This document shows, piece after piece, positions 2 through 23,512 of a DNA stretch of 64,000 nucleotides. The translations under genes were made by a program, and so were the position numbers. A model generated the notes under the pieces. It was given only the letters and a program-made list of their open reading frames with translations. It had not been told where the DNA came from and searched no databases. How positions within the stretch are numbered: the stretch's first letter is position 1; every line of letters starts with the position of its first letter. The stretch is from Lysinibacillus sphaericus (GTDB lineage Bacteria > Bacillota > Bacilli > Bacillales_A > Planococcaceae): assembly GCF_001629735.1 (NCBI RefSeq), contig NZ_CP015224.1, positions 3,782,001-3,846,000 on the forward strand, given 5' to 3'.

Positions 2-2995
<2,994 letters not shown>

Positions 2996-3177: not shown

Positions 3178-3229
3178 ACCGTACTTACTTATGATATGGT
3201 TCATCGTATTTAGTGTAATGGTGGTTTTA
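3178..3229 (-). repeat. SCC-like attachment-site copy 1 (leftmost, diverged)
   Basis: The minus strand carries GAACCATATCATAAGTAA (3185-3202), one base different from the 18-base 3' end of rlmH in this window. The left flank is ACCGTACTTA; the right inverted arm is degraded (TAATGGTGGTTTTA). No gene covers it. It is the outermost copy visible and marks the far end of the cassette array, unless more copies lie beyond the window. The remainder of 2996-3474 holds a small AGCATC/GATGCT hairpin (about 3125-3152) and no convincing gene. Confidence 0.8.
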
Positions 3230-3474
3230 TTTAACTCTCTACCTCTCCCAAATTAATGTCATCTGTTGTAAATGTATAAACATTATCATATTTAGCCCTT
3301 AACGAATCAGGTATCTTCATTACAAAAATAGGATCATTTAATAGTAGCAATATTATTGCAATATAAATGCCATGAACGAAATCAAATTAACACCTCCTTG
3401 TTCTTTTTCTCAGAAAAATCTATGTTACGATGACTTTACATTAACAACTAAGAACGCACATGGAGGATTAATGA

Positions 3475-4347
3475 ATGCTTAAAAAAATAATTTCAATTGT
3501 ACCAGTTGCAATGCTTTCGGCAACTTTAGGTGCTAATGTTCAAGCCGCAACAATTACCGTACAAAAAGGAGATACTCTTTGGGATTTATCTCGTGCACAT
3601 AATACTTCTGTAGAAAATATCAAAACATTGAATCATATTACTACTAACCTTATTCAACCTGGCGATGTCCTTACCATTGCACAACAATATACCGTTAAGC
3701 AAGGTGATACACTATGGGACATAGCTCTAAATCATCAAGTCACTGTTTCCCAAATTAAAGAATGGAACCAGTTACATACAGACCTCATTCATCCGGGTTT
3801 ACATCTATCTATTATTGATGGGACAAAAACTAATACAGCTATAACTGACAAACCAATAAAGCCTGCAAAGGAAACTACAACTTCAGTAACAAATCATAAA
3901 ACTGCAATGGAGAGTAAACCTGAAGAAACTGTTTCATCAACAAGTAAAACAGCTTCAAAGGATCGTGTCCCAGAAGTGACCGCTCCATCAACAAATAATA
4001 CTGCTCCAAAAGAGAATACGCCTGAAGCAATTACGCCCCCATCAAATACTATTGCTTCAAAGGAACTTATAGTAGAAGCTTCGGCCTATACGGCCTCATG
4101 TGAAGGATGTTCCGGTATTACTGCTACTGGAATTAACCTTAAAACAAACCCCCATGCGAAGGTCATCTCAGTTGACCCAACTGTCATTCCACTGGGTAGT
4201 AAAGTTTATGTGGAAGGCTACGGTGAAGCAATCGCAGGAGATACTGGCGGTGCCATTAATGGAAATCGAATCGATGTCTTTTTTCCTTCTCAACAAGATG
4301 CCATTAATTTTGGAGTGAAGCAATTAAAGGTCACAATATTAGACTAG
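3475..4347 (+). CDS. Secreted LysM-3D domain cell-wall protein (YocH-like putative muralytic enzyme)
   Basis: This 290-residue protein has a signal peptide (MLKKIISIVPVAMLSATLG, likely cut after VQA near residue 24) and two LysM peptidoglycan-binding repeats (about 26-69 and 71-114, each with GDTLWD). A Thr/Ser/Pro-rich linker follows, then a C-terminal 3D domain (about 200-290) with the Asp motifs SVDPTVIPLGS, AGDTGG and NRIDVFF. In the family such proteins are secreted lytic transglycosylase-like wall enzymes (B. subtilis YocH, WalRK regulon). The start at 3475 is set by GGAGG eight bases upstream; the ATG at 3471 gives only a tiny ORF. It lies in the interval between attachment copies 1 and 2, with a staygreen-family gene. 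Confidence 0.88.
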   Translation: MLKKIISIVPVAMLSATLGANVQAATITVQKGDTLWDLSRAHNTSVENIKTLNHITTNLIQPGDVLTIAQQYTVKQGDTLWDIALNHQVTVSQIKEWNQLHTDLIHPGLHLSIIDGTKTNTAITDKPIKPAKETTTSVTNHKTAMESKPEETVSSTSKTASKDRVPEVTAPSTNNTAPKENTPEAITPPSNTIASKELIVEASAYTASCEGCSGITATGINLKTNPHAKVISVDPTVIPLGSKVYVEGYGEAIAGDTGGAINGNRIDVFFPSQQDAINFGVKQLKVTILD

Positions 4348-4483
4348 CTTAACCAGCCTAATAAACAGCGAATGTTAAATTGTTAGAAGATGAGAATGAT
4401 GGGTATAAGTTATCCATTAACTTACAGATTAATCGTAAAAATATTGGAATTAACAAATTGAAACATTATGCCACTAGAGAAAT

Positions 4484-4520
4484 GGACCCTGAAGTATTGT
4501 TCTACAGGGTCTATATTTCG
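4484..4520 (+). terminator. Weak hairpin downstream of the LysM-3D gene
   Basis: GACCCTG (4485-4491) pairs with CAGGGTC (4505-4511), followed by TATATTTCGTTC, so the T-tract is poor. It lies about 135 bases after the stop of the LysM-3D gene. Nothing else was recognised in the 327-base gap 4348-4674; an ORF at 4380-4562 has no ribosome-binding site and contains this hairpin. Confidence 0.4.
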
Positions 4521-4674
4521 TTCATTTGTACATATCATCAAATAAAAAATGTAAAAGTTTAATACATTTCCCGTAAAACATAAGCCGCTCTATAAAAACT
4601 TAATACATATGACTTTTAACTATTTAATAGGTTTATACCTGCATATTGATAGAAAAATGAATGGAGTTGATAGC

Positions 4675-5133
4675 TTGGGAAAGTTCGACCCAGAAAAACT
4701 ATTCGTTCAATATAGGCATGGTATAACTACAATGAAACCTGTCATTCCAAGACGTTATACACTTACTCACTCAGATGATACTGGCGATCTATTTTTAACG
4801 ATAGGAAATGAGTATGCTTGGGATAAAGTGAATACTAAGATGAGAGATGAGGTCTTAGGTGAGTGGATTACTAATGGGGAATGCTTTTATTTCTATTTAT
4901 ATTTATATATAGAACAAGGAGAATACAATCAAAATGCAGCTGCAAAACGCAATGAAATATTTAGGCGTGAGTTACCACTTGCACTAACAGCCATTCGATA
5001 TGGAGATAGATCACTATTTAATCAATACCCTAAACTTGATAGCGCTCATATTATCGTGAACTTTATATCCACTTATCCTCAATTTGCTAGGCAAGAGAAT
5101 TGGGGTACATTCAGTAGTTATAGCAATCATTGA
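4675..5133 (+). CDS. Staygreen-family protein (bacterial SGR-like)
   Basis: The product, read from TTG, is 152 residues and matches the bacterial staygreen family as I recall it: a start like GKFDPEKLFVQY, then PRRYTLTHSDDTGDLFLTIG, RDEVLGEW, EQGEYNQNAAAKRNEIFRRE, LPLALTAIRYGDR and RQENWGTFS. Plant homologues are Mg-dechelatases of chlorophyll breakdown; the role in non-photosynthetic Bacillales is unknown. I chose TTG at 4675 because ATGGAG lies about 8-9 bases upstream and homologues start just before FNPEKL. An upstream ATG at 4609 would add 22 atypical residues. A terminator-like hairpin and attachment copy 2 follow. Confidence 0.82.
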   Translation: MGKFDPEKLFVQYRHGITTMKPVIPRRYTLTHSDDTGDLFLTIGNEYAWDKVNTKMRDEVLGEWITNGECFYFYLYLYIEQGEYNQNAAAKRNEIFRRELPLALTAIRYGDRSLFNQYPKLDSAHIIVNFISTYPQFARQENWGTFSSYSNH

Positions 5134-5208
5134 AGAAAACTCGCTATATTGATTTCCACCAACACAAGAAAAAGGACATAAAGGCGAAAAACAATGATAA
5201 ATAAAATT

Positions 5209-5254
5209 AAACCACCTAAAACGCTGACATCCCAACGCTCTAGGTGGTCTTTTC
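5209..5254 (+). terminator. Terminator abutting attachment copy 2
   Basis: ACCACCT (5211-5217) pairs with AGGTGGT (5242-5248), followed by CTTTTC, directly before the AAAACCGCACTTA arm of attachment copy 2. It serves the staygreen gene. A hairpin also sits beside several other attachment copies and beside the rlmH copy. Confidence 0.65.
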
Positions 5255-5308
5255 AAAACCGCACTTACTTATGATACGGTTCACCGTAATAAGGATAAGT
5301 GAGGTTTT
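5255..5308 (-). repeat. SCC-like attachment-site copy 2
   Basis: The minus strand contains GAACCGTATCATAAGTAA (5265-5282), identical to the 18-base end of rlmH. Flanking arms AAAACCGCACTTA (5255-5267) and TAAGTGAGGTTTT (5296-5308) form an imperfect inverted repeat around it. The neighbourhood 5134-5441 otherwise contains only the adjacent hairpin and AT-rich DNA. Confidence 0.88.
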
Positions 5309-5441
5309 TATTTAAGTTACATTAGTTTCTTATTTTATAGACAAGTTTTTCTTATTTTTGTCCTCATTCAGACATAAACAACTCCGATTATCAGTAATAG
5401 CAAAGAGTTTACGATTAAACTGTTAGTACAGATTCATCTAT

Positions 5442-6401
5442 TCAATCTACTACACTACTTGCTCTAAGTGATTCATTAATAATATCAGTTACTGCTAAAT
5501 ATAAATTTTCTGGTTGTTCTGCAATTCGATGACAAAGGTACAAATACCACTCACTTCCATACGTTAAATAGACTCTACAACGATATTCCTTCGTTCTTAA
5601 TTCATTGAGTAACTCTGGACGTACACCATACAGCATCTCTACTTCAACATTCGATTTATGAAGATATTGACGTCGCTCTATCTCTTGAATAAGCGTTTCA
5701 TCATGCGTGGCGATTGATATCGGGTGGTTTGCATTCACTAACTGTTCAACATACTCAAGATAACGGCTATTCAGTTCTTCTGATCTGATCATGGCTATAT
5801 CAACAGGCTCTTGAAAAGCCCCTTTTACAAGTCTTATTTTTCCTGGATATTGAATAAGTTCTTGTAAATCTACCTCTGTACGATAAAGATGAGCTTGTAT
5901 AGTTATTCCAATATTTGTGTAGTTTTTTGCTATTTTTTTATAAAGAGTGAGAATATCACTTGTCTTAGAGGATTCTTCCATACTTATCATTAAAGTTATT
6001 CCATACCATTGAGCTTTTTGTGCGAGCTCTTCAAGGTACTGATAAGCAATCTCATCGTTAATAGAAAGGCCTATATGAGATAAATCAAATGATACAGTTT
6101 GTTTTAAAGACAATATCCCCATTTCCTCAATTACTTGTAGAATCTCATCCTTTGCCCTTTTACATTCCGATAAATCGGTTGTATTTTCCCCAATATATTC
6201 TATGGAGATATTATAATTATCCTCGAGATATTCACGTGCAACCGTGATGACATCCTCTCTCTTTTCTCCTGTTACATATCTTTTTGCTGCTTTCCATAAT
6301 AACGGATAGAGCTCTGTTGATTGTTGCACAGCATATTTCAAGCGCTCATCTCGTGCTGCGCTTTTTAAGGCTTGAATCACTAATTCTTCTGCTTTTTTCA
6401 T
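5442..6401 (-). CDS. Proline dehydrogenase family protein (FAD-dependent PRODH)
   Basis: This 319-residue protein has the monofunctional PRODH fold signatures: an N-terminal helix segment ending LWKAAKRYVTGE, VSFDLSHIGLSI, IGITIQAHLYRTEVDLQEL, and the FAD/substrate-site motif IRLVKGAFQEP. The family oxidises proline to 1-pyrroline-5-carboxylate, feeding electrons to the membrane quinone pool. The C-terminal half is somewhat divergent from the strongest family pattern (YRCRVYLTYGSEWYLYLCHR where RVY(V)P(Y)G is usual), so a related amine substrate cannot be excluded. GAGGAGG upstream supports the start. It is transcribed divergently from a MocR/GabR-type regulator that probably controls it. The pair is the whole content of the interval between attachment copies 2 and 3. 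Confidence 0.85.
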   Translation of the reverse strand: MKKAEELVIQALKSAARDERLKYAVQQSTELYPLLWKAAKRYVTGEKREDVITVAREYLEDNYNISIEYIGENTTDLSECKRAKDEILQVIEEMGILSLKQTVSFDLSHIGLSINDEIAYQYLEELAQKAQWYGITLMISMEESSKTSDILTLYKKIAKNYTNIGITIQAHLYRTEVDLQELIQYPGKIRLVKGAFQEPVDIAMIRSEELNSRYLEYVEQLVNANHPISIATHDETLIQEIERRQYLHKSNVEVEMLYGVRPELLNELRTKEYRCRVYLTYGSEWYLYLCHRIAEQPENLYLAVTDIINESLRASSVVD

Positions 6402-6462
6402 ATTTATTCCTCCTCTTGGATATTGATAAATACTTTATCATGATATAATTGGTTACTGTAGA

Positions 6463-6496
6463 ACCACTTTAAGGAGATTTTAAAGGTACCACTTTT
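6463..6496. promoter_or_regulatory. Divergent promoter region with ACCACTTT direct repeats, candidate operator
   Basis: The 113-base divergent intergenic region holds two direct copies of ACCACTTT (6463-6470 and 6488-6495), 25 bases apart, and a TATAAT hexamer just upstream (within 6444-6450). MocR/GabR proteins commonly bind direct repeats in such divergent promoters, so this is a plausible operator for the 6515-7906 regulator (inference). Confidence 0.45.
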
Positions 6497-6514
6497 ATAT
6501 CGGAGGGATGAAAA

Positions 6515-7906
6515 ATGTTATGGATACCTATTGATCGAGCATTAGATATTCCTTTAAATCGTCAAATCTATCAACAAATACGCGAAAAAATTTTACGTGG
6601 ACACCTCCATGCAGGAGAAAAGCTAGCATCAACACGCGAGCTTTCAGTAGAATTGAAAGTATCAAGGAATGTCATTTTAGAAGCTTATGATCAGTTACTG
6701 GCCGAAGGGTTTTTAATTGCACGAAGAGGAGCCGGTACATTTGTTGCAGAGGGGGCGTTATTAACACAACAGACAAAGCCTTTTATTACAGATAAAGTAG
6801 GAAATTTGATAGCAGGGAAAGAAGTTATAAATTTTCGCTCGGGTATCCCTGCACTCAACTTGTTTCCTCGTAAAACATGGGCTAAGATAAGTCATCAACT
6901 TTGGCACGATAGTGAACCTTCCACTTTGGGATATGGAGTACCAGAGGGGCGCATAGAATTAAGGCAAACCCTTGCCTATTACCTATTAAAAACAAGAGGC
7001 GTTGAATGTCATCCAGAGCAAATTATCATTACATCTGGTGCTACACAAGCAATGATGCTTGTATCGAGATTGCTGTTATCACCTAATGATATAGCTATTA
7101 TGGAAGATCCTATTACGAATGATATTCAAACCATCTTTAAGAACTCTGGTGCCACAATCTATCCAATACCGGTAGATGAATTGGGAATGAAAACGCCTCT
7201 ATTACCCGACAATATGGACCCTAAACTAGTGTTTTTAACACCCTCTCACCAATTTCCATTAGGAAGTACATTACCAATTCAACGTAGAATTCAATTAATT
7301 GAGTATGCTAGAAAGAATCATTGCTTTTTAATTGAGGATGATTATGACAGTGAGTTTCGCTACGAAGGCCCACCTGTTAGCTCTTTGCAGGGCCTTGATC
7401 CAGAGCTTGTTCTCTACATCGGCTCTTTTAGTAAAATTCTCTCTCCGGCACTACGAATAGGATACATTGTCCTTCCAACACAGCTTATCGAAAAATGTCG
7501 CCAATTGAAATGGTTTACAGACTTACACACACCTTCCTTGGATCAACTTACCCTTTCTCGTTTTATCCAGGAGGGCTACATGGAAAGACATATCACAAAA
7601 ATGAAAAAGTTTTATAAAAGTCAACGTGATTTTCTTATACAATGCTTACAATTAACTTTTTCACATAAAGTAAAGATATTCGGCTACTCTACAGGTATGC
7701 ATTTAATTGCAGAATTTGAGAAGATAGAATTTACGCAAAACTTATTACTGAAAATTGAACAATTTGGTGTAAAGGTTTACCCTGTAGAGGATCATACAAT
7801 TAAAAAGGGAATTTATAATAACAGATTAATTATTGGCTATGGTCATTTACAAAAAAATGAAATTGAACTAGGCGTCACTAGACTATTTCAAGCCATCAAT
7901 AATTAG
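6515..7906 (+). CDS. MocR/GabR-type regulator: GntR winged helix fused to aminotransferase-like domain
   Basis: This 463-residue protein has an N-terminal GntR-type winged helix (about 1-75; IYQQIREKILRGHLHAGEKLASTRELS) joined to a class I aminotransferase-fold domain (about 110-460). ITSGATQAMML, LTPSHQFPLG and SFSKILSPALRIGYIV are typical; the SFSK lysine is the expected PLP Schiff-base residue. The family senses amino acids or PLP derivatives and regulates adjacent catabolic or PLP genes. Divergence from proline dehydrogenase suggests it senses proline or a derived metabolite; vitamin B6 control (PdxR-like) is less supported because no pdxS/T gene is nearby. CGGAGGG upstream supports the ATG start. 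Confidence 0.9.
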   Translation: MLWIPIDRALDIPLNRQIYQQIREKILRGHLHAGEKLASTRELSVELKVSRNVILEAYDQLLAEGFLIARRGAGTFVAEGALLTQQTKPFITDKVGNLIAGKEVINFRSGIPALNLFPRKTWAKISHQLWHDSEPSTLGYGVPEGRIELRQTLAYYLLKTRGVECHPEQIIITSGATQAMMLVSRLLLSPNDIAIMEDPITNDIQTIFKNSGATIYPIPVDELGMKTPLLPDNMDPKLVFLTPSHQFPLGSTLPIQRRIQLIEYARKNHCFLIEDDYDSEFRYEGPPVSSLQGLDPELVLYIGSFSKILSPALRIGYIVLPTQLIEKCRQLKWFTDLHTPSLDQLTLSRFIQEGYMERHITKMKKFYKSQRDFLIQCLQLTFSHKVKIFGYSTGMHLIAEFEKIEFTQNLLLKIEQFGVKVYPVEDHTIKKGIYNNRLIIGYGHLQKNEIELGVTRLFQAINN

Positions 7907-8030
7907 GAGAATATCTATGTTAGCTTCTATTGAAAAACCATCCAATCGCCATATCATATCCACTGCCCCTTTCAGTAGATGCCTTAGATGATTCTCCCAT
8001 GCCGCTGTAAATTATATTCATTTCAAAGTA

Positions 8031-8061
8031 AAAAAGCTTAAGCTGAAATATCAGCTTAAGC
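8031..8061 (-). terminator. Perfect 11-bp hairpin terminator beside attachment copy 3
   Basis: GCTTAAGCTGA (8036-8046) and TCAGCTTAAGC (8051-8061) pair perfectly around an AATA loop. On the minus strand TTTTT follows, so it terminates the chemoreceptor transcript, although attachment copy 3 lies between that gene and its terminator. Confidence 0.85.
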
Positions 8062-8120
8062 AAAAACCGCCTTAACTTATTATGATAAGGTTCTCCGTAA
8101 CCTGTCTAAGTGCGGTTTTA
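8062..8120 (-). repeat. SCC-like attachment-site copy 3 (variant with 3-base insertion)
   Basis: The minus strand reads GAACCTTATCATAATAAG, i.e. the rlmH end with G-to-T at position 6 and an extra AAT, so the stop codon of the standard core is displaced. The outer arms are well kept: AAAAACCGCCTTA on the left and TAAGTGCGGTTTTA (8107-8120) on the right. Confidence 0.8.
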
Positions 8121-8129
8121 ACTAGTAAC

Positions 8130-9944
8130 CTACTTTACACGGAAACGGTCAACACTCTGTTTCAATTCATCCGCCAGCCCATAAAGCATAGCTGCAAAAC
8201 TGGCTACCTCTTGCATGGCTGCAAGTTGTTCTTCTGATGAAGCGGCGATGTGAGCGGAATCGGCTGAAGAAGAATCTGCGATACCCTCCAGCACTGTTAG
8301 TGAAGCCGCAACTAACTCACTTCCTGATGACAGTTGTTCCGAAGCAGCAGATACTTCGTCAATCTGATCGGACACTTTCTGAATCGACTCCACGATCGAA
8401 CTAAATGTTTGCCCTGCCTTATTTGCAATGTGTGTACCTGCCTGGGCCTCTGTCATTGATTTATCCAAAGAAACCACTGTTTTACTCGTGTGATCGCTGA
8501 TACCTTGGAGGATGTCAGTTATTTTCTCCGAAGAGGTTTTGGACCGTTCAGCGAGTATACGAATTTCTTGAGCCACAACGGCAAAACCTTTACCATGCTC
8601 GCCTGCTCGCGATGCCTCAATCGATGCGTTGAGTGCAAGCAAATTGGTCTGATTAGCAATGCTACCTATTAATGTAACCATTTCACTAACTTGATCGCTT
8701 AATTTCTTCAGTCCATGGATTGCTTCGACCGATGTTTTCAAGTTTTGTTCAATTGTGCTCATTTGAGCAACTGTTGTTTCTATATCCTTCATTCCTGCAT
8801 TTGCGCTATCTGCTGTAACCGAGGCCAATTCTGAGACGACGGAGGATGCATCTACGATTCTATGAATACCCATTCCCATTTCCTTCATTGATTGTTGACA
8901 CTCATTAGTGTGACGAAGTTGTTCATCGAGCCCAACAGCAATGTTTTGAATGGCATCTGTGATTTCTTGTGTAGCTGTTTCGGTCTGGGCAGCGCTTTCT
9001 TGTAATTGAGAAGAAGATACAGCAACTTCATTCGAAGATTTTTGTATGTTATGGGTCAATACCCGAAGTCCGTTAATCATCTGATTAAATGAACTTGCAG
9101 CCTTACCAATCTCATTATGGTTCAGTACAGGAATTTCAACGGTTAAATCACCTTTCGAAGCATGTTCAGACACTTCAGCTAAACGTGCAAGCGGGCGCAA
9201 CATTTTACGAAGAATGAATACAACCAACCCAATTAACATAAGTACAAAAAAAATACCAACCGTGATATTCGTCCATAGAATCCGTTGAAGTTCCTTTTTA
9301 ACAATCCCGTAATCGAAATCGACACCGAACAACGCAACTGGTTTCCCACTTTCGTCATTAATCGGCGCTAAATACGAGATGAAAGTCCCACCTTCATCAG
9401 TGTAAACATCAGTTAATGTGCTACCGTTTCTCATTGCATCTTCGTAATTTTTAAGAAATTCCGAATCTATTTCATATAACGTACCTAACTCTTCAGCATA
9501 TTCACCTGGATCTCGACCATACTCTGAGTTATATAAGTATTCTTTGCCATCCTTCCTGATAATGTCCGGTGTTAATAAATAGACATCCACTACCATTTCA
9601 TTAGATTTCATGGAATTCAAACTATTGGGGAGTTCCTCGAATGGTTTTCCCTCCAATGGTTGATGCTCAAGAATTGTCTTCGTTGCTTCGGCAACAAGAG
9701 GTTCATTTTGTTGAGTTATAGATTTGAATACTTTTCCATATTCATCAAATTGGCGAAAATACGCTCCACGTTGATCGCGTATGGACAGGGAAATCATTAA
9801 TCCGATAACGATAATTATAAGGGCGGAGAGAAATAACGAGCTCGTCAATACTAAACTTCTAAATTTTGCTTTTTCAGAGAACTTAGTGTTCCTCCTGGTA
9901 TTTAATAATTTTTTTCTTCCAATCAAGGGAAAACCCATTTTCAT
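8130..9944 (-). CDS. Methyl-accepting chemotaxis protein with dCache-like periplasmic domain
   Basis: This 604-residue transmembrane chemoreceptor has a first membrane segment around residues 30-52, an extracytoplasmic sensor of about 170 residues (Cache-like, with [20 protein letters not shown] and [20 protein letters not shown]) and a second membrane segment (about 225-247). A HAMP domain follows, then a long signalling coiled coil with the conserved hairpin tip ([38 protein letters not shown]). It would feed CheA/CheW to control the flagellar motor; the ligand is unknown. The ATG is preceded by GAAGGTG. It is the only gene between attachment copies 3 and 4. Confidence 0.95.
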
Positions 9945-10436
9945 TACACCTTCTATTTTAGCTTTTATCTATAATAATACATATTGTTACGATTTAGATC
10001 CCTGCTTCACGCAAATATGTAATCCTTTTTATTGTGATGGAGGGCTTAATATTTATAGTAATACACTGTTTCAAATCAACCAGTTATACATAAGTTATAC
10101 ATAAATTATACAATTATAAAATATTTGGAGCAAAGTTTATTTTAGTTCCTCTTTATCCCCTGTTCATCAAAGTTAGCAGAAAAGGTATTGAGCTATATTA
10201 TAAAATAATTTAAATTTTGTTTACTTGAATTTTAGCTGTCAGGGAAGAACCAGGGTTTTCTATTACAATCGGATAAAATTTAATAATAATGGAGAATGTA
10301 CTTTCATAATCTCTATGTGTCATAGCATCATACTTAGCAAAAGAAAATAAAAACAGCCCAACTAATCTCTTAGTTAGACTGTCATCTCACAGCTATTTTC
10401 AACTTTATTAATAATTAATCTTCAGTACTGTAGAAT
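9945..10436. other. Intergenic DNA upstream of the chemoreceptor, with short tandem repeats
   Basis: No gene is supported here. The only local structure besides the hairpin at 10353-10382 is a short tandem repeat of an 11-base unit (GTTATACATAA twice, then ATTATACAATTA) at 10083-10117. An ORF running 9781-10104 on the plus strand is mostly antisense to the chemoreceptor and lacks a ribosome-binding site. Confidence 0.5.
10353..10382 (-). terminator. Terminator-like hairpin near attachment copy 4
   Basis: ACAG...AACTAA pairs with TTAGTT...CTGT around a short loop, and on the minus strand it is followed by TTTTTATTTTC. It lies about 55 bases to the left of attachment copy 4 with no minus-strand gene between. 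Confidence 0.65.
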
Positions 10437-10488
10437 ACCTCACTTACTTATGATATGGTTCACCGTAACTGATGTAAGTGCGATTTTA
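10437..10488 (-). repeat. SCC-like attachment-site copy 4
   Basis: The minus strand has GAACCATATCATAAGTAA (10444-10461), one base from the rlmH end. Arms are ACCTCACTTA on the left and TAAGTGCGATTTTA (10475-10488) on the right. Confidence 0.85.
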
Positions 10489-10835
10489 TACAAGTTTGAT
10501 AGTTAATTCTATTAAATTTTCTTCATTACCATTCTTGTCCCTCTACAAATTATTGCAACAGTAATTTGTCATCATTGATATCCAAGTGTTAAAAAAGTAT
10601 TACTATTGAATTAACTCTATTTTAGAATAGATTTCTATTACTCGAAAAATCAATTAAGTAATCTTTGTTGATGCCCTATTTAATCAGCTTCAACGAGAAA
10701 ACATTCTGCAAATTCTATATGATTTAAATTTTATTTCGCTAATAGTGAATATATATTGAAAACTAGGCTAATTACCTTAAAATTTTTAGGCAACGTACAT
10801 ACAATAATTTGATTAGATTAAAAAGGAGCGAATAA

Positions 10836-10880
10836 ATGTCTATGAACAAACTTAAGTCGAGTAAGGGGCAGTTATGGTAA
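10836..10880 (+). CDS. 14-residue ORF overlapping the beta-helix gene start; leader peptide or frameshifted N-terminus
   Basis: AAAAAGGAGCG is followed seven bases later by ATG, opening MSMNKLKSSKGQLW and a TAA that overlaps the ATG of the next gene (ATGGTAA). The large ORF itself has only GGGGCAG before its ATG. Either the peptide is a coupling leader or the two frames were once one, separated by a small indel. The rest of 10489-10835 is AT-rich with no gene recognised. Confidence 0.35.
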   Translation: MSMNKLKSSKGQLW

Positions 10881-14336: not shown

Positions 14337-14341
14337 TACAT

Positions 14342-15485: not shown

Positions 15486-15517
15486 AAAAACAGTCTTACT
15501 TTTATTTAGTAAGACTG
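15486..15517 (-). terminator. Terminator of the Shedu-type gene
   Basis: CAGTCTTACT (15491-15500) pairs with AGTAAGACTG (15508-15517); on the minus strand TTTTTATTC follows. Confidence 0.88.
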
Positions 15518-15589
15518 CACATTCTTTAAATAATCCTTATTTAACTACTTATCTATCGTTATATATTATGATAATAATTTATAGCAGAT

Positions 15590-16741: not shown

Positions 16742-16902
16742 ATACAATCCCCCTAAAAATTTTTTACGATTAATTCAATTCTATAAATATTGTATATTCA
16801 TATTTTACAATATTTGACTCTACTTGAACTTAAATTATCCACTATATTTTTCTTTTGAATATTACTTAGATGCATCTCCTCATAAAATGCGGTTAAAACA
16901 AG

Positions 16903-16930
16903 AAAAAGGGTAGATGAATAACCATCTACC
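16903..16930 (-). terminator. Terminator downstream of the recombinase operon
   Basis: GGTAGATG pairs with CATCTACC around a short loop (16909-16930); on the minus strand CTTTTTC follows. It ends the recombinase-led gene set just before the Shedu gene. Confidence 0.8.
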
Positions 16931-17001
16931 AAAAATTTTAGTTCATTTAATTATAAGCTTATTAAAAATCAATTTACCTTCCGCTTCTTTCACATTAAAA
17001 C

Positions 17002-17163
17002 TTATTTAATCCGAAAAAACTTTTGAACACTACACTTAAAACAAATTGAATTGATAAGCTTTTTAACTTGTCTGTCGTTGAAGAGAATATTTTTCACTTC
17101 AATTTCTTTTGAGCAATGTCTACAATAAGCTACTTTTCTTTCAAAAGACTTTAATTTTGACAT
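17002..17163 (-). CDS. 53-residue zinc-ribbon-like protein
   Basis: ATG at 17163 opens a 53-residue protein with paired cysteines CRHC (residues 14-17) and CFKC (41-44), basic linkers and a C-terminal FRIK. The two CxxC knuckles 24 residues apart suggest a small treble-clef or zinc-ribbon fold that could bind nucleic acid. It is the last gene of the run that begins with the recombinase. I do not recognise a named family. Confidence 0.6.
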   Translation of the reverse strand: MSKLKSFERKVAYCRHCSKEIEVKNILFNDRQVKKLINSICFKCSVQKFFRIK

Positions 17164-17194
17164 TAAACTTCACATCCTATATCTACTTTTAAAC

Positions 17195-17278
17195 TTACCT
17201 ATTTATAAGGTGTAGTAAAACATATGCCAATTTAGCGTACCCTGATAAATTCTCCTTAATAGATGATTTAGCCTTCAT
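17195..17278 (-). CDS. 27-residue peptide in the recombinase operon
   Basis: AAGGTGGTGAGCAA precedes ATG at 17278, opening a 27-residue frame (begins MKAKSSIKENLSGY, ends LLHLINR). It is positioned between the 98-residue gene and the zinc-ribbon gene with short gaps, so operon membership is likely if it is translated. Function unknown. Confidence 0.4.
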   Translation of the reverse strand: MKAKSSIKENLSGYAKLAYVLLHLINR

Positions 17279-17293
17279 TTGCTCACCACCTTT

Positions 17294-17590
17294 TTAAATA
17301 TCAATATCACGAACTTCACCGTTACTAACCCAAATAGTTTTTAAATGACGTTGATTCAATTCATCATATACATCCATCATTAAATATTCATCACCTGTAT
17401 CATTAAAGTAATTAATAGCTGTTACCAGGCATACATCTGGTAACAACTCGTACTCTTCCGCTGTAAAATAACGCTCATCTACCTCTTCTTTATACAACTG
17501 AATCGTTTCATAGCCAATATCAGCCATTAATATAGATTCTCTTATAAAACTTTTTATTCCTTTTAAAAATCGTTCATACGAATACTCCAT
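17294..17590 (-). CDS. 98-residue acidic protein of unknown function downstream of the recombinase
   Basis: ATG at 17590 has AAAGGAG eight bases upstream; an in-frame TTG two codons earlier is too close to that site. The protein is small and strongly acidic (KEEVDERYFTAEEYELLPD, FNDTGDEYLMMDVYDELN). It follows the recombinase stop by 18 bases. Small acidic ORFs downstream of ccr genes are common in staphylococcal SCC elements (for example the DUF950 uracil-DNA-glycosylase inhibitor and DUF960), but I see no clear sequence match to either, so this is a positional analogy only. Confidence 0.6.
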   Translation of the reverse strand: MEYSYERFLKGIKSFIRESILMADIGYETIQLYKEEVDERYFTAEEYELLPDVCLVTAINYFNDTGDEYLMMDVYDELNQRHLKTIWVSNGEVRDIDI

Positions 17591-17608
17591 CTTCAATTCT
17601 CCTTTGAT

Positions 17609-19270
17609 TTAAATTGCAATTAAAACAGAAAAAGAGGTAGAAAACTCATCTGTTGATAAGTCATCTACCTCTAATTTCAATTCATTTAATACTTCTTCAT
17701 TAAGAACTAATTGAATACTATCAATTTCTCTATCTTCATTTATGGTGATTTTATTAATAATCAAATGTAACAATCGTTTCCGCTGCTCTCTCGTTAAAGC
17801 TTGTTCAAATGCTTTTGAAAAATCCTTTAAGATTTTTCTAATGGCCTCTGGAGCAATTGTTTCACCTGAGTTGCCTTGCATTTGTCGATTTAAAGGCTTC
17901 ATTCGCTCGTTTAGTTCTGCGATTTGCTTGTCTAACGCATTAGCCTTTTCAATATACAACGACTTAGGAATCAATTCTTCTGTATAAGCATCAAATGTCT
18001 TTCCTCGTTTATGCTCTAATTCTTGCATCTGTTTTTGATAAAATGCATGTTCTTTTTGGATAGGAGCAAATAACTTTTCATTTCGCTGATTCACATTGTT
18101 CACTAGTTCTTGTATCAACTTATCGCTTTGCATGAGTGTTTGGAGCTTAGAAAACACGTATGCATCTGCTTTATCTGTTCGTACACCATTTGAACGACAA
18201 ACCAATGTACCTTTATTCTTCCATGCTCCGCAAACGTAATACTCCAGTACTTTTTTAGTGCCGTCTTTTAATGTATTCGTTGTTCGACCAATTACCATAC
18301 CAGCATCACAAATAGGACATCTCATGATTCCTGTCAGTGGAAATTCACCATCATGCACACGGTTCGGCAAACCTGAACGTCTTTCAAATATTCCTTTTGC
18401 AATTGACCACATTTCTTCCGTAATAATTGGGGAATGGTCAGCTTTCTGGATGACTGGGTCAGGATTAATATTGTTTCTTCTTTTTTCATTCCAATCTCTA
18501 CGTACATTGTATCGAATATATCCAGTATAAACGGGGTTCGTTACAATCGTTTTGATTGCGTTTAATGAAAAGGTTTTCCCTTTTTTTGTTAGAAACCCCT
18601 TCTTGTTAATATGATTAGCAATTGCCTTGTAACCATGTCCAGAAGTATACATATTAAAGATGTACTGAACAATTTCTGCTTCCTTTTCATTAATCACTAA
18701 TTGTGTATTTTTCCGTTTTTTGTTTGCATCAGGTATTTGTACAATATCATAGCCTAGCACTTGTCCACCGTTCCACTTCCCTTCTTTCGCTCTTGCAATC
18801 ATCCCCATCTTTACATTTTCAGCGATATTATTACGTTCATACTCTGCAATAGCAGCCATCATTTGAAACTGTAGTTTACCTGTTGGTGTTTCCGTTTCGT
18901 ACCGTTCTGTATGCGAGCGAAAAGCAATATTTTTACTGTTTAATAATTCAACAATATTCATTAAATCAACCATTTTTCGGGCTAGTCGGTTCATCTTCCA
19001 GACTAAAACTACATCAAGTTTCTTCTGTTCGGCATCTTGTAACATACGTTGAACGGCTGGTCTACCTGTAATATTTTTTCCACTGATACCTCTATCAATG
19101 TATTCTTCAAAAACAAAATAACCATTGTCCTCACAATATTCTTTTAAAACACGTATTTGTTCATCGATACTATACCCTTCTTCTGCTTGTTCCGTTGTTG
19201 ATACACGAGCATAAATTGCTATTCTTCTTCTTGCTTCTTGCCAATATTCAAGTTTACTCAATCCTTTCAT
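17609..19270 (-). CDS. Large serine recombinase, CcrC-like in architecture and context
   Basis: The 553-residue protein has an N-terminal resolvase domain (about 17-165) with IAIYARVSTTEQAEEGYSID, catalytic Ser24, and GRPAVQRML, VWKMNRLARK and EYERNNIAENVK. A recombinase domain follows (about 180-290; ILxNPVYTGY-type TNPVYTGYIRY), then a zinc ribbon with Cys318, Cys321, Cys347 and Cys358 and a coiled-coil tail (about 395-480). CcrC of staphylococci is about the same length and domain order. In this setting it would integrate and excise DNA at the rlmH 3' end. The ATG at 19270 abuts GAGGAGG, so a TTG at 19261 (spacing 9) may be the true start. It overlaps the end of a 31-residue leader ORF. 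Confidence 0.92.
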   Translation of the reverse strand: MKGLSKLEYWQEARRRIAIYARVSTTEQAEEGYSIDEQIRVLKEYCEDNGYFVFEEYIDRGISGKNITGRPAVQRMLQDAEQKKLDVVLVWKMNRLARKMVDLMNIVELLNSKNIAFRSHTERYETETPTGKLQFQMMAAIAEYERNNIAENVKMGMIARAKEGKWNGGQVLGYDIVQIPDANKKRKNTQLVINEKEAEIVQYIFNMYTSGHGYKAIANHINKKGFLTKKGKTFSLNAIKTIVTNPVYTGYIRYNVRRDWNEKRRNNINPDPVIQKADHSPIITEEMWSIAKGIFERRSGLPNRVHDGEFPLTGIMRCPICDAGMVIGRTTNTLKDGTKKVLEYYVCGAWKNKGTLVCRSNGVRTDKADAYVFSKLQTLMQSDKLIQELVNNVNQRNEKLFAPIQKEHAFYQKQMQELEHKRGKTFDAYTEELIPKSLYIEKANALDKQIAELNERMKPLNRQMQGNSGETIAPEAIRKILKDFSKAFEQALTREQRKRLLHLIINKITINEDREIDSIQLVLNEEVLNELKLEVDDLSTDEFSTSFSVLIAI

Positions 19271-19349
19271 CCTCCTCTTGCTCTACCAACTCTAAATATT
19301 TTTCTACCATTGCAGTAAGTATTTCTAAAATTTCTGTTGATTCTTTCAT
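19254..19349 (-). CDS. 31-residue leader ORF overlapping the recombinase start
   Basis: AAAGGTGAGG precedes ATG at 19349, opening an acidic 31-residue peptide (begins MKESTEILEILTAMVEKYL, ends EDERIE). Its stop lies inside the recombinase coding sequence, so the two overlap by about 8-17 bases depending on the recombinase start. Such overlap suggests translational coupling controlling recombinase dosage. Confidence 0.5.
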   Translation of the reverse strand: MKESTEILEILTAMVEKYLELVEQEEDERIE

Positions 19350-19413
19350 TTATCCCTCACCTTTATAAAATATATTTATTTTTTATTTTGATACGGTTAA
19401 TTATTAAGGGTCT

Positions 19414-19493
19414 AAGGGAGTAAAAAGACAAAAAAAAATAAATCTGCCCAATAAGAAGATTTAAAAAACTTTTTTATATTAATTTACTCCCTT
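19414..19493. repeat. Perfect 11-bp inverted repeat between helicase and recombinase genes
   Basis: AAGGGAGTAAA (19414-19424) and TTTACTCCCTT (19483-19493) are exact inverted copies separated by 58 very AT-rich bases. It could fold as a long-loop terminator after the helicase gene, serve as an operator for the recombinase operon, or be part of a replication origin. The sequence does not decide. Confidence 0.5.
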
Positions 19494-19500
19494 TTTCACT

Positions 19501-20802
19501 TTAAATATTAAAACTCATACCAGCTATGTGGTCGTAGCCATCAATACGTTTTTCTATAATTAAAATGCCTTTACTATCTAAAACATTTTCAAATTCCTTT
19601 TTAAATTGACGGTTATTTCTCACTGAATTATATAATCCATTTTTTTCTATCCACTCTAAATAGAGCTTATAAATTTCAGAACGCTTTATTTTTAAATTTC
19701 CACTTAGAACCACCGTTGATTCAAAAAAATTTAATACGGGATTTTGCATTAATTGATATTTTGCCATTTCACTTTCTATAGCATCTGCCTTTGTAAAATT
19801 AAATTCTAGCTGGTTTAAACGTACTAAACCTTCAATCGCCCAATTAAAAATTCCATCCAATTCTTCCTGAAGTTCTTGTAAGATATCTCTATTACGTTCT
19901 TCTTCTTTAAAAGTCCTTTTAAATGGTATGATTATCAGTCTTCTAAAATAGCCTTGTGTCAAATCTGATGTATCTGGTAGTTCATTCCCTAAAAACAACA
20001 GCCTACATTTAGATTTATAGTTTACAATTGGAGACTTAAATTTAATATTAATTGTTATACCGTCACCACTCACAATTGCTTTAAAAGTTTCGGTATTTAA
20101 TTTTAATCCATTCATCTCATTCTCTGCAGCAACGTTTAAAGTTTTATTCATAATTCCTTCTAGTCCAAAATTAGAATTGAACTGAGCTAAGGGAATTGTA
20201 CTTACATTTTCATTTCCAACTAAAATTTTAACCAAGTTTGCTAATACACTTTTACCGTTAGCACCTCTACCATAGTAGTAAACTGCTTTTTCAGATTTAA
20301 TTTCTGTAGTTATCCAATAGCCAATCAGCTCTTGATGAACTTTAATCAAATCGGAATCGTTATTTGTTATTTCATCCATGAAGTGTAGAAACTTAGGGCA
20401 TTTAGCTGATCGATTGTAGATAATAGGGATTCGAACAGTAGATAAATACCTTGGATGATGCTTTTCCAACTTATGAGTTTTCAAATTGTACATTCCATTT
20501 TGTAAGTTAACTAAATCGCTATAAATATTTAGTTCAGCTACAAAAGTTGCCTCACGTAAAATAGCTCGAATAGCTTCTTTCTCATAAATACTTTTCCAAC
20601 TATTAGCTAATCCATCATTCATCAATTCTCTAACTAATTTACTTAGTTCTAGAGGCTTACATTGTTGATATTAGCCATCTTGATTATAGACATAAAGTAC
20701 ACCATGTTTGTCACAGCAAGCTATGACTCTCTGTAAAAAATGCTCTGCAAACAAATTTGCATTAAAAATAAAATGCTTTTTTGGAGTATATTGAAATCCC
20801 AT
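19501..20802 (-). pseudogene. D5-type (SF3) helicase of the mobile element, interrupted by an in-frame stop
   Basis: Reading from ATG at 20802 the frame begins MGFQYTPKKHFIFNANLFAE and runs to NQDG, then TAA at 20671-20673, then continues in the same frame as YQQCKPLEL into a 374-codon helicase body. The body has the D5_N/phage-plasmid P4-type helicase hallmarks: LIGYWITTEIKSEKAVYYYG, Walker A GRGANGKSVLANLV, RLLFLGNELPDTSD and RRLIIIPFKRTF. The N-terminal primase domain usual in P4-type proteins is missing, so the gene is probably also 5'-truncated. A TTG at 20625 gives a shorter ORF without a good ribosome-binding site. SCC elements carry a helicase beside ccr that supports replication of the excised circle; this may be the functional analogue, now decayed. 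Confidence 0.78.
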
Positions 20803-20831
20803 TTCAATCGCTTTTGAAATACGAATTACCT

Positions 20832-21086
20832 CTAAAATTTCAATTTTGATGCTCGTTCTGACAGTATAGATGGGTTGGTATCGGAAATTTCATATTCAAA
20901 TTCGAAACCATTAAGTAATAAGGTTAAAATCTGTCTCTTATCATATTCTTCAATACAATTTAAAGCATCTATTAGATGTTTTTGCACATTCCTATACTGT
21001 ATATCAGCTATTGTATCCTTTAAAATTTGATGATGTTCCTGAATATATAAAGCCGTAAATTTAAATGGTTTAATAATGTTATTCAT
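20832..21086 (-). CDS. 84-residue hypothetical protein of the element
   Basis: ATG at 21086 is preceded by GGAGGAATAAGATT, a near-ideal site, so longer upstream extensions of this frame (to 21179) are not needed. The protein is helical (begins MNNIIKPFKFTALYIQEHHQ) with no motif I recognise. Its start lies five bases after the stop of the preceding broken gene, consistent with an operon leading into the helicase gene. Confidence 0.6.
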   Translation of the reverse strand: MNNIIKPFKFTALYIQEHHQILKDTIADIQYRNVQKHLIDALNCIEEYDKRQILTLLLNGFEFEYEISDTNPSILSERASKLKF

Positions 21087-21090
21087 AATC

Positions 21091-21486
21091 TTATTCCTCC
21101 AAAGATGTGATGATAATTTTATAATAAGTTTGGTAATTAGCATTAACTGGTTCAATAAAGCATGTTCCTTTTTCACCAACGAAATCCTCTAGACTGAATG
21201 TTTCATTCAATTCTATAAAGTACATAAACTGACTAAAAAACTCATCCAGTCTCTTACTTGGAGCATATTTGCCCTTAAAACTAAATACTTGTTCTACTTG
21301 ATAATTACCCGTTCCATTTTCTAAAGCAAATATAAACTTCACATAATAAAAATCCTTATTTTTAGATGGGAAGGTATTACAATTCACAATTTCGAAATGA
21401 TAAATTTAATTCTGCCACTCTAAGGGTAAACTTTTAATTCCCTTTACCTTAATACATTTACGTATTTCCTCCACCGAGTAATTCAT
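21091..21486 (-). pseudogene. Small element gene interrupted by an in-frame TAA
   Basis: GGAGGAGATAAT precedes ATG at 21486, opening MNYSVEEIRKCIKVKGIKSL. TAA occurs as codon 27 (21406-21408), after which the same frame stays open for about 105 codons (IYHFEIVNCNTFPSKNKDFY onward, with VFSFKGKYAPSKRLDEFF). The downstream part alone would need a GTG at 21387 without ribosome-binding site. One A-to-T change (AAA to TAA) would explain the break. The intact protein would be about 131 residues; I do not recognise the family. Confidence 0.65.
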
Positions 21487-21628
21487 ATTATCTCCTCCTT
21501 AACAATTGAATAAGACAACTTTCATAACAGTTCAATTAATTTTTACTTATCTGCCGATCCGTATAGTAGTCTTATAATATATTGTTCGGAATTAACGTTT
21601 TTTGTTATGCGAAATAAATTACAAAACA

Positions 21629-21695
21629 AAAAAGCAAAATTGATGTCTACATATTTGTATCAACTACAAATAGATAAAACGTCAATTTTGCTTTT
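21629..21695 (-). terminator. Terminator of the ATPase gene
   Basis: AAAGCAAAATTGA (21631-21643) pairs with TCAATTTTGCTTTT (21682-21695) across a 38-base loop; T-rich DNA follows on both strands. Confidence 0.6.
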
Positions 21696-21720
21696 AATGT
21701 ATATAAATTAGTAACTAAAA

Positions 21721-23370
21721 TTAATCAAGGGAAACATCCTGACACCATAGATAACCGCTTTTAGCGTTTTTTGATAGGTCTTTGCTGAAAATATCAGATG
21801 CTCTATTCTTATCAATTGCACCTTCATGAAAAGCAACAGCTAAGTCTAACATTAATAATGGCCCTCTTAATCCATCTTTTTTATAGTATTTTTTGACCCT
21901 TGTTTTACCCTTATCGTGAATAGCTCCCTGCATAAATAAATTCCCCAACTTCATTGCTTCTGACCTAGAAACAGTGAAGTAAACATTTGCTGGTAGTTTA
22001 TTCTTTTCAGTTTTAGTTTTGTTTTCAGTTTCATTTTTCTTATTTCTTTTATTCATTTTAGTAACAATGTTATCTAAAATACGGAAATCATTTTCAGTAA
22101 GTTTATTATATGCTAACACTTGATTTGGTACAATTGAGCTCAAAGCTTCTTCAATATCCTTAGTATTTATTTTTTCAACGTTCGTAGCTGATGGTTTATG
22201 ACCTATTCTTTGAATTAAATTGTCATAAGCATGTTTTAAAATTTCTATATACCTTCTTACATTACCATTTGAAAAATAAGCTGCTAATACTAAGCATTTC
22301 TCATTTTCCATGATATCCAAGTAGTTTGAATATCCCTGTTCAGGTAACATTTCACGAATTCTATTATTTGTAAGTGTTTTATAGAAATCTAAATAATCAT
22401 CTGACAGTTCATCCATTGAAACATATTCCATAATGGCATCGTGACCTACATCAAAGTTAAATGGGTCCCCATTAACATTAGATGGATAATAAGTTATTGG
22501 AGTTGGATAGACCGATGCACAGAAATATGCTGCATTTTCATTGGCTTCATCAGTTAATGCTCCTCGAATTAACTTTAGTAATCTAAATACTTCTATTTGA
22601 GCATTTTTACTTACTTCAGAGCATTCATCAATTAATAAGATTGTATAACGATGATTTAAAATGTTTTTTAACTCTAATATGAAATTCACTAAAAAGCTTG
22701 CTGCATTACTATGAGATAAGCTATTCCCGACATATAAAAACTCTTGTTGGTCCGTTTCGCTATAAGATGCATTTGAAGTAACCCCTAAAGAACCAACTGA
22801 AGGAATGTTTACGTTAGCTGTTCCTGTAGTCGCCATGGTAGATTGTGTTCCAAATACGGTTTTAATTGTCTCTGGATTATAGGTTAAATCTGATAAGAGC
22901 TGCTCACTTAACTCTTTAATACGTTCAATTAAAACATCAATATTTTCACTGTTATTTAAACCAAACATTTGAGCAATTTTTTTTACAGACTTTTGAAAGC
23001 CGGTATTACCAGCCAACTTTATTTTATCTTTATTTTGTTCTATAGTTTTAATTATTTGAGTTACAATATTAGCATATAAGTGTATTCTAAATAGTTTAAC
23101 ATCGCTTTCGACCCATTCATGGACACTTGCTAAAGAAACATACACAGGTAATATTTTTTTTTCTTGAAAATCATCAATACATTTTTGATTAATCATTTTC
23201 AATATATGCGTTTTTCCTGTCCCTCTTATCCCTTCAATTAAATAATTTTGTCCAGAATCCCCTAAAAACTTATCTATACTAAAACCTGGGTTAGCATGTG
23301 TGTTTGGAAAGAATCCCCCAGCCTGTGCATCATGTTTAAAAAAATCCATTTTTATTTCAACAATTGCCAT
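21721..23370 (-). CDS. AAA/STAND-like P-loop ATPase of unknown function, cassette cargo
   Basis: The 549-residue cytosolic protein has Walker A GIRGTGKT (residues 47-54) and Walker B TILLIDEC (243-250). An unusual Thr/Ser/Gly-rich insertion (about 172-205) and a winged-helix-like region (LTENDFRILDNIVTKMNKR) before a lysine-rich linker follow. The overall form, an ORC/MNS-type ATPase with a C-terminal extension, resembles stand-alone ATPases of prokaryotic defence islands, but no effector domain is visible. AAAGGTGGC upstream supports the start. It is the cassette gene closest to rlmH. GC is lower than in the chromosomal genes to its right. Confidence 0.7.
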   Translation of the reverse strand: MAIVEIKMDFFKHDAQAGGFFPNTHANPGFSIDKFLGDSGQNYLIEGIRGTGKTHILKMINQKCIDDFQEKKILPVYVSLASVHEWVESDVKLFRIHLYANIVTQIIKTIEQNKDKIKLAGNTGFQKSVKKIAQMFGLNNSENIDVLIERIKELSEQLLSDLTYNPETIKTVFGTQSTMATTGTANVNIPSVGSLGVTSNASYSETDQQEFLYVGNSLSHSNAASFLVNFILELKNILNHRYTILLIDECSEVSKNAQIEVFRLLKLIRGALTDEANENAAYFCASVYPTPITYYPSNVNGDPFNFDVGHDAIMEYVSMDELSDDYLDFYKTLTNNRIREMLPEQGYSNYLDIMENEKCLVLAAYFSNGNVRRYIEILKHAYDNLIQRIGHKPSATNVEKINTKDIEEALSSIVPNQVLAYNKLTENDFRILDNIVTKMNKRNKKNETENKTKTEKNKLPANVYFTVSRSEAMKLGNLFMQGAIHDKGKTRVKKYYKKDGLRGPLLMLDLAVAFHEGAIDKNRASDIFSKDLSKNAKSGYLWCQDVSLD

Positions 23371-23446
23371 GAATCTGCCACCTTTACATATTTTAGTTTT
23401 ATAACTTTATAATACCAAAAATAACATTAACATTCGGTTTATTCTC

Positions 23447-23480
23447 AAAAAAAAGCAAATTCTAAATAAGAATTTGCTTT
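23447..23480 (-). terminator. Terminator downstream of rlmH, outside the attachment core
   Basis: AGCAAATTC (23454-23462) pairs with GAATTTGCT (23470-23478) around TAAATAA; on the minus strand TTTTTTTT follows. It terminates rlmH but lies on the cassette side of the attachment core, so it was brought by or belongs to the cassette end. Confidence 0.9.
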
Positions 23481-23512
23481 TAAAACCGCACTTACTTATG
23501 ATACGGTTCTCC
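23481..23512 (-). repeat. SCC-like attachment-site copy 7 in the rlmH 3' end (cassette-chromosome junction)
   Basis: The last codons of rlmH (EPYHK and TAA) are the core GAACCGTATCATAAGTAA (23492-23509), followed by the AACCGCACTTA arm (as GTGCGGTTTT on the minus strand). There is no second inverted arm on the gene side, as expected for the chromosomal boundary. Staphylococcal SCC elements use the same position of the same gene, with a core that differs at one position as I recall it. Confidence 0.92.

Follow-up and report, generated by a model that had tools for sequence, protein, structure and literature searches.

The end of rlmH in Lysinibacillus sphaericus very probably carries an array of cassettes of the staphylococcal cassette chromosome (SCC) type, built by a CcrB-like large serine recombinase acting on sites of about 54 bp. 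The array lies in a stretch of 64,000 nucleotides (contig NZ_CP015224.1, positions 3,782,001 to 3,846,000 of the forward strand), called here the window, whose own numbering is used below. Counted from rlmH outward, its six intervals measure 9394, 1228, 2426, 2368, 2811 and 2080 bp. An original prediction, made from the letters of the window, had proposed an SCC-type array with these spacings and with a recombinase gene in the rlmH-proximal interval. The spacings are confirmed, the recombinase is indeed there and is CcrB-like, and the intervening genes vary in content, number and order among relatives. In the manner of mobile elements, cassettes are present or absent as exact units, and exact units are shared between species at identities above that of the DNA upstream of rlmH.

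Cassette 1, next to rlmH, is an SCC-type element. It carries a large serine recombinase of the ccr family with a helicase gene directly upstream, and it is flanked by direct repeats of the attachment core and by inverted repeats. The core itself consists of the last codons of rlmH, as in integration at the 3' end of this gene. Cassettes 2 to 6 have SCC-type sites at both ends, no ccr and one or two ordinary genes each; they are built like pseudo-SCC elements. Since the host is a Lysinibacillus, we use the name SCC-type and do not speak of a staphylococcal SCC.

Attachment sites

The last 18 bases of rlmH have six matches in the window at up to three mismatches, every one on the minus strand (0.10 expected; none of 100 shuffles reached six). 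Four are exact (5265, 12870, 14098 and rlmH itself at 23492) and two contain one mismatch (3185 and 10444). A seventh copy, at about 8076-8093, has a small insertion. The rlmH end and its six further copies, all in one orientation and of the quality first described, are therefore real. The genome, a single contig of 4,692,801 bases, has no copies with at most one mismatch besides these six. The seven further matches each have three mismatches, and a reversed-pattern control likewise gave seven. A repeat family dispersed over the genome and unrelated to rlmH, which the original prediction had named as a sign against its own reading, was looked for and not found.

The 18-base repeat understates the site. 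Internal copies form the centre of sites of about 54 bp, composed of AACC-CACTTA, about six loose bases, TTACGG, the core GAACCGTATCATAAG and TAAGTG-GGTT. The outer arms are inverted copies of each other, symmetric about the GA of the core. With the dyad placed at this GA, 44 of the 54 consensus positions match, against at most 20 at each of twelve other offsets tried. The copy in rlmH has only the core and one cassette arm, GTGCGGTTTT; the left arm is absent, as expected of a chromosomal half-site or target. The arms of the sites end in T runs and are placed between genes.

Cassettes differ among relatives

Up to 40 kb behind rlmH were compared in 30 Lysinibacillus relatives. An rlmH match was obtained in 31 of the 32 genomes of the genus, that of the window included; G005 gave no match and was dropped. 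The available stretches are shorter in G006 (4.0 kb) and G015 (1.0 kb), both at contig ends, and in G019 (24.5 kb). Across the relatives examined, the cassettes, their numbers and their orders all differ.

Comparison of rlmH loci with and without the array, a check proposed with the prediction, revealed empty sites in G006 and G002. In G006, rlmH is joined straight to a relative of cassette 6. The other five cassettes (18.2 kb) are absent, and these extra 18.2 kb of the window sit between two copies of the core. Upstream of rlmH, the DNA of G006 is 94.1% identical to that of the window genome. Likewise, the site that holds a ccr element of 14.65 kb in G003 is empty in G002. In G007 and G008, the chromosomal flank is common from the core outward, with no common block of at least 350 bp between rlmH and that core.

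Sharing between arrays was measured on 61 blocks of at least 500 bp and at least 80% identity that start inside arrays. Of their 122 ends, 20 are no more than 35 bp from a site in each of the two genomes; for three blocks this is true of both ends. In 500 random placements of the internal sites, the mean number of such ends was 0.05 and the maximum 2, and no block had both.

Identities of cassettes were set against those of an 8-10 kb alignment upstream of rlmH in ten hand-chosen pairs. G024 and G031 have in common, from site to site, a 2.2-kb sensor-kinase cassette that is 99.5-99.7% identical, compared with 92.9% upstream; in one of these arrays it comes second, in the other first. The whole chemoreceptor cassette of the window is 95.6% identical to that of G017 (79.7% upstream), and a 1.8-kb part of it is 96.2% and 96.1% identical to those of G022 and G019 (80.3 and 79.2% upstream). 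Its array position is fourth in the window and third in G017; in G019 and G022, where its rlmH-side part differs, it comes first. Higher identity of the cassette was also observed for G017/G022 and G019/G022 (97.1 and 97.5% vs 92.4 and 90.2%), G001/G028 (89.4 vs 82.4%) and G022/G023 (96.7 vs 92.3%). By these comparisons, the chemoreceptor cassette appears to have been transferred between species.

Probable position of the exchange within the site

Junctions that share one side were aligned on the core: nine pairs have the left cassette in common and eight the right side, and 134 rlmH-rlmH junction pairs were set aside as uninformative. The cleanest left-sharing pairs first differ at core position 5 (G004/G018) or 8 (G031/G024). 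The cleanest right-sharing pairs agree from position 0 (G031/G024) or -3 (G006/window, G007/G008), and remain identical as far as position 14 or throughout the rest of the stretch. Positions 0-4, GAACC, are the smallest interval fitting these pairs and contain the GA of the symmetry axis. The junctions would safely place the exchange inside the core region, from about -3 to +10, a supported but coarse position; in the simplest reading it would occur in GAACC. An exchange inside the core would imply that an entering cassette re-supplies the last codons of rlmH.

The recombinase

Against the profiles of the Ccr families, the window enzyme scores 454 bits with CcrB (NF047343), below the curated equivalog cut-off of 900, 324 bits with CcrC and 99 bits with CcrA. 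R22, S24 and Q28, as well as the zinc-ribbon cysteines C318/C321/C347/C358, are invariant in an alignment of nine sequences that includes it. Two adjacent recombinases are present in G012 and G025, unlike in cassette 1. The counterpart in G003 of the upstream helicase is a DUF927 protein with a Pfam 'Cch helix turn helix' domain. The cassette 1 helicase (window 19501-20750) is short, at 374 residues, and may lack an N-terminal part.

A search of genome contigs with the recombinase gave at least 80 loci in Bacillaceae, Paenibacillaceae, Planococcaceae-type genera, Enterococcus and Clostridia. At 53 of the 80 loci listed, rlmH lies within the available flanks. A tree was built from 43 sequences, of which 13 were hand-chosen (Lysinibacillus and one staphylococcal plasmid) and 30 came from the 80 loci; two of the 32 loci tried were skipped for stops. 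In it, the window enzyme stands among rlmH-linked recombinases and clusters with four enzymes of the same genus and one of Metasolibacillus. Staphylococcal CcrB, 40% identical to it, falls within the wider group, beside an enzyme of Enterococcus rivorum. CcrA forms a very long branch of unsure placement. A search of plasmids with the window Ccr gave, among the matches listed, only identities below 60%, the best being staphylococcal (41%).

A separate group of recombinases is encoded at most about 150 bp from the rlmH end, in the opposite orientation (many of loci L131-L180, mostly Bacillaceae; L018, which is G012). Its junction is very conserved in many members (AAATAGAGGCAAAAA...). This group is apparently a second rlmH-targeting lineage.

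Proposed mechanism and alternative explanations

In the mechanism that we propose, the Ccr of cassette 1 would recombine the sites of about 54 bp, with their symmetry axis GA within the last rlmH codons. A circular cassette would enter at the rlmH site and substitute its own copy for the final codons of the gene. Entry would leave a new site between the newcomer and the older cassettes, and repetition would build the row. Since the sites have one orientation, any pair of them could in principle release the DNA between them, so that ccr-less cassettes could be moved in trans or together with a neighbour. We infer that this Ccr performs the recombination, that the intermediate is circular and that the enzyme can act in trans. 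The explanation is favoured by the empty sites, the sharing of single cassettes, the block ends at sites, the cleanest junction pairs with the dyad on GA, the affinity of the enzyme to CcrB and to rlmH-linked recombinases, and the concentration of ccr in first intervals (8 of the 9 with ccr).

Several observations weigh against this explanation. As many as 102 of the 122 block ends lack a site in one or both genomes. The blocks, drawn from related genomes, are non-independent, so that the placement of their ends is a strong pattern without a formal probability. Cassette 6 is less alike between the window and G006 (88.0%) than the DNA upstream of rlmH, and in G002/G003 the cassette equals the upstream DNA (96.5 vs 96.6%), against the trend of the other pairs. 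At the junctions, differences appear as early as -2 or -1 in five of the nine left-sharing pairs, and at positions 4-9 in five of the eight right-sharing pairs, whether through point changes or in another way. The window Ccr reaches half of the curated CcrB cut-off, and the CcrC and CcrA cut-offs are likewise not reached. A CcrB of the AB type requires CcrA, and no CcrA partner of the window Ccr was found; tblastn with nine Ccr queries returned one recombinase in cassette 1. Among the 28 genomes that have intervals, 19 show no ccr in any interval within the 40 kb or less examined, so that most arrays would either depend on a visiting recombinase or no longer change. Finally, distal intervals in some other clades include genes that are chromosomal in the clade of the window, which makes the 72 intervals of the census below an upper count of true cassettes.

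Some of these points would also suit a different history, in which the sites are traces of earlier insertions, the ccr-less pieces decayed SCC remnants whose recombinase was lost in place, and the present variation arises by homologous recombination in the flanks. The degenerate sites at 8076 and 3185, the 19 arrays lacking ccr, the occurrence of tiny or gene-less intervals and the many block ends away from sites are all compatible with it. However, several shared blocks stop at the 18-bp cores with unrelated DNA beyond, and the cassette of G024 and G031 is 99.7% identical at different array positions. Moreover, none of the 20 cargo proteins sampled from ccr-less intervals is a product of a ccr-module gene, and several belong to complete single operons. 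We regard decay in place as unlikely.

The repeats might instead be an intergenic repeat family, or bidirectional terminators that resemble the rlmH end by chance. Inverted arms with A/T tails would form a terminator-like hairpin, and the sites are intergenic. Against this, the copies occur only at the rlmH locus in the genome, in one orientation and with rlmH codons at their centre; the presence or absence of cassettes stops at the repeats, and the rlmH copy is one-armed. This very improbable explanation was rejected on the lack of genome-wide copies and on the block ends at sites. Less probable still is a strict integron-like system with single-stranded folded sites and a tyrosine integrase, even if short cassettes of one or two genes, sites in the same orientation and imperfect inverted arms recall one. 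The recombinase is a large serine recombinase, and no tyrosine-integrase domain was found among the array open reading frames (ORFs) scanned. Cargo facing both ways argues against a single array promoter. We rejected the integron on the lack of a tyrosine integrase in these ORFs and on the two directions of the cargo. As for a phage vehicle, no viral contig contained one strict site pattern, a result that excludes that pattern only. An SCC-type array built by a CcrB-like recombinase remains the explanation that we hold with high confidence.

Census of intervals and sites

The 31 genomes contain 72 intervals of at least 150 bp, an upper count as said above, in 28 genomes with at least one interval. 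The site model, trained on 55 sites of the same sequences, gave 102 forward sites at threshold and none in one mononucleotide shuffle per genome, a rough control. Its 22 reverse-strand matches were assumed, unchecked, to be palindromic readings of the same sites. Sub-threshold sites at the rlmH end of G008, G012 and G014 were added by hand, by which the first intervals of G008 and G012 were counted. The largest number of sites at rlmH is eight (G024). By tblastn (above 60 bits), nine of the 72 intervals bear ccr, and eight of these nine are the first behind rlmH; the ninth, with a 207-bit fragment in G016, lies behind a 72-bp double site. The 63 ccr-less intervals have a median length of 2808 bp.

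Twenty cargo proteins were hand-chosen from ccr-less intervals. They comprise two related GAF sensor kinases, a complete amino-acid ABC transporter (three proteins) and another ABC ATPase, as well as an EamA transporter, TerD, two related UvrD-type helicases, and DUF445, HD-CE and GmrSD-type proteins. Three transposase proteins of two insertion sequence types and four proteins without a family were also found.

The pattern of the rlmH end plus arm occurs in at least 143 of 261 genomes of the order (19 genera, one family) and in at least 16 of the 19 genera, with some matches away from rlmH. The reversed pattern had no match in the same 261 genomes, among the matches listed. Eight of eleven hand-chosen loci outside the genus have an rlmH match and at least two sites. 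In G049, G065 and G071, sites are present and no rlmH match was found in the available stretch.

Sites with short intervals were also observed away from rlmH, at L182 (G009; 7091-8965), L183 (G008; 7864 and 13033), L184 and L185. The cluster in G009 adjoins genes that match in length and order (177, 219, 157 and 258 residues) those following the rlmH array of G007 and G008; it may be a displaced array. The sites of L183, L184 and L185 may be secondary insertion sites.

Host genes as cassettes

Cassette 5 encodes a proline dehydrogenase and a MocR-type regulator. This gene pair occurs over most of its length in 16 of the 32 genomes of the genus. Besides the copy of the window, 14 are not close to rlmH or sit on a different contig; the remaining one belongs to G005, the genome without an rlmH match. 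G010 has the pair at a distant chromosomal locus, with 88.5% identity to region 5429-7954 of the window. In G010 and G003, the two native loci compared, the pair (about 88% identical) lies between flanks syntenic to 3.52-3.54 Mb of the window genome. At that position, the window genome misses 3.3 kb including the pair, and the flanks are 9 bp apart. Homology of cassette 5 to the native copy stops short of both sites, by 146 bp on one side and about 120 bp on the other.

These data suggest a broader reading, which we put forward tentatively and judge to fall slightly short of an even chance as a whole. The rlmH locus of Lysinibacillus and of its family might be a working platform for gene shuffling, a serine-recombinase counterpart of the chromosomal integron. 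Small recombinase-less cassettes with host genes (chemoreceptor, sensor kinase, amino-acid ABC transporter, spore coat, proline dehydrogenase and its regulator) would pass between species and be reordered by transient Ccr enzymes. Resident chromosomal genes would become new cassettes, the proline dehydrogenase/MocR pair being a captured example.

Comparison with known systems

The original prediction saw the extension beyond Staphylococcus and Macrococcus as new. On this point it was anticipated, as SCC-type elements elsewhere, including tandem ones, are already described in the consulted parts of PMC6222049 and PMC10061031. The former reports the SCC-like Enterococcus cassette chromosome (ECC) at rlmH. 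According to the latter, most Bacillota islands with large serine recombinases in its set lie downstream of rlmH; its table gives examples from Planococcus (Planococcus antarcticus), Paenibacillus and Bacillus, and a tandem composite is named in Paenibacillus pinistramenti. Pseudo-SCC islands of Macrococcus are described in PMC6008420, also consulted in part.

The likeness to SCC, composite and pseudo-SCC elements (partly after PMC10061031, PMC6222049 and PMC6008420) concerns the rlmH-end target, the core with TATCATAA, the inverted arms, the large serine recombinase with its upstream helicase, and the tandem arrangement of elements, some of them recombinase-less. Differences are the Lysinibacillus host and a single CcrB-like recombinase for which CcrA was not found. 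In addition, the staphylococcal comparator has DUF960 and DUF1643 genes downstream of ccr, whereas an ORF without a family is found here, and most intervals in Lysinibacillus measure a few kb and hold few ordinary host genes. ECC, in the parts of PMC6222049 consulted, resembles the present arrays in its rlmH end, its sites of about 50 bp with inverted repeats and conserved TATCATAA, its ccr recombinases and the multiple attR sites of 16 of 32 ECCs. It differs by its ccrAB genes, by the 32 kb of the transferred example and by fewer than five att matches per genome, compared with the eight sites at rlmH in G024. The Pol-SSB islands of PMC10061031 share a large serine recombinase with a helicase, a position mostly downstream of rlmH and tandem composites. 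That paper, however, covers primase-bearing islands, and its consulted parts contain no ccr-less mini-cassettes, no exchange and no Lysinibacillus.

Integrons combine a tyrosine recombinase (IntI-type), encoded at one end, with folded attC sites and small recombinase-less cassettes. The present arrays are integron-like in use, with small recombinase-less cassettes, sites in the same orientation and a recombinase encoded at one array end. They are Ccr-type in build, with a serine recombinase, symmetric double-stranded sites, genes oriented either way and no shared promoter. In the titles and abstract openings of the open-licence literature, preprints excluded, we found no description of SCC-type arrays in Lysinibacillus. 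What is new is the form: stacks of mostly recombinase-less mini-cassettes that trade host genes across a genus. SCC has become known chiefly as a vehicle of methicillin resistance, and the source of its cassettes and cargo is an open question. The Lysinibacillus arrays offer a natural system in which to study the formation of cassettes, their mobilisation in trans and how host genes turn mobile.

Genes and other features of the array

The features of the array are collected in Table 1. Cassette 1 also contains small ORFs. In the 32 genomes of the genus, the sole full-length homologue of the 632-residue protein of cassette 3 outside its own genome is in G027 (71%). Array genes point in both directions, so that the cassettes probably carry their own promoters. 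No tRNA genes and no Rfam matches were found in the window.

Table 1 Features of the rlmH array and its flanks in the window
Feature	Position	Strand	Remarks
rlmH (159 aa)	23492..23971	-	Pfam SPOUT_MTase 2.8e-57; last codons = core, array start
rlmH-end attachment site	23480..23509	-	core and one arm GTGCGGTTTT
Cassette 1 (9394 bp), ccr-bearing, rlmH-proximal	14115..23508	-	bounded by sites 23492 and 14098
549-aa P-loop ATPase, cassette 1 cargo	21721..23370	-	weak ORC-CDC6-like, Sll1717-type ATPase and PADLOC-candidate matches
374-aa P4-type primase/helicase C-terminal protein, directly upstream of ccr	19501..20625	-	TIGR01613 1.8e-65; DUF5906, D5_N
CcrB-like large serine recombinase (553 aa)	17609..19270	-	NF047343; Resolvase, Recombinase and zinc-ribbon domains
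100-aa protein downstream of ccr	17294..17596	-	no family matched
Shedu SduA anti-phage protein, cassette 1 cargo	15590..16747	-	PADLOC SduA 9.8e-186; Pfam SduA_C
362-aa protein with HExxH-type motif, cassette 1 cargo	14342..15430	-	Peptidase_M48 only E 0.25; weak PADLOC capP
Attachment site 2	14086..14139	-	exact core 14098-14115, both arms
Cassette 2 (1228 bp)	12887..14114	-	one 272-aa protein (12912-13730), no family matched
Attachment site 3	12858..12911	-	exact core 12870-12887
Cassette 3 (2426 bp)	10461..12886	+	632-aa protein (10874-12772), BMQ_0737-type spore-coat domain, NF052457 4.3e-32
Attachment site 4	10432..10485	-	core 10444-10461, one mismatch
Cassette 4 (2368 bp)	8093..10460	-	methyl-accepting chemotaxis protein (8130-9944), Pfam MCPsignal 6.8e-43
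Attachment site 5	8062..8117	-	core about 8076-8093, small insertion
Cassette 5 (2811 bp)	5282..8092		proline dehydrogenase (5442-6401, -) and MocR-type GntR/aminotransferase regulator (6515-7906, +)
Attachment site 6	5253..5306	-	exact core 5265-5282
Cassette 6 (2080 bp)	3202..5281	+	LysM/3D protein (3475-4347) and Staygreen-family protein (4609-5133)
Attachment site 7, distal array end	3173..3226	-	core 3185-3202, one mismatch
Large PA-domain protein, chromosomal flank	26..2995	+	beyond the array in 8 of 31 genomes

The PA-domain gene ends in a run of six-base repeats (Gly-Asn codons; window about 2900-2960) whose length may vary. In G030 (L044, 3961-10395), this gene and its neighbour stand in swapped order and in the same orientation relative to the flank of the window genome (oriented 21042-26946). 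The swapped pair of blocks is bounded by sites, and a simple cassette insertion does not explain it. Movement of larger chromosomal blocks in the form of cassettes was considered as well; block order differs between G000 and G030 or G024, with breakpoints only partly tied to sites. In G016 (L045), double sites about 72 bp apart (oriented 479-551 and 10183-10256) occur at both ends of one large interval, in which the recombinase is present as a fragment only.

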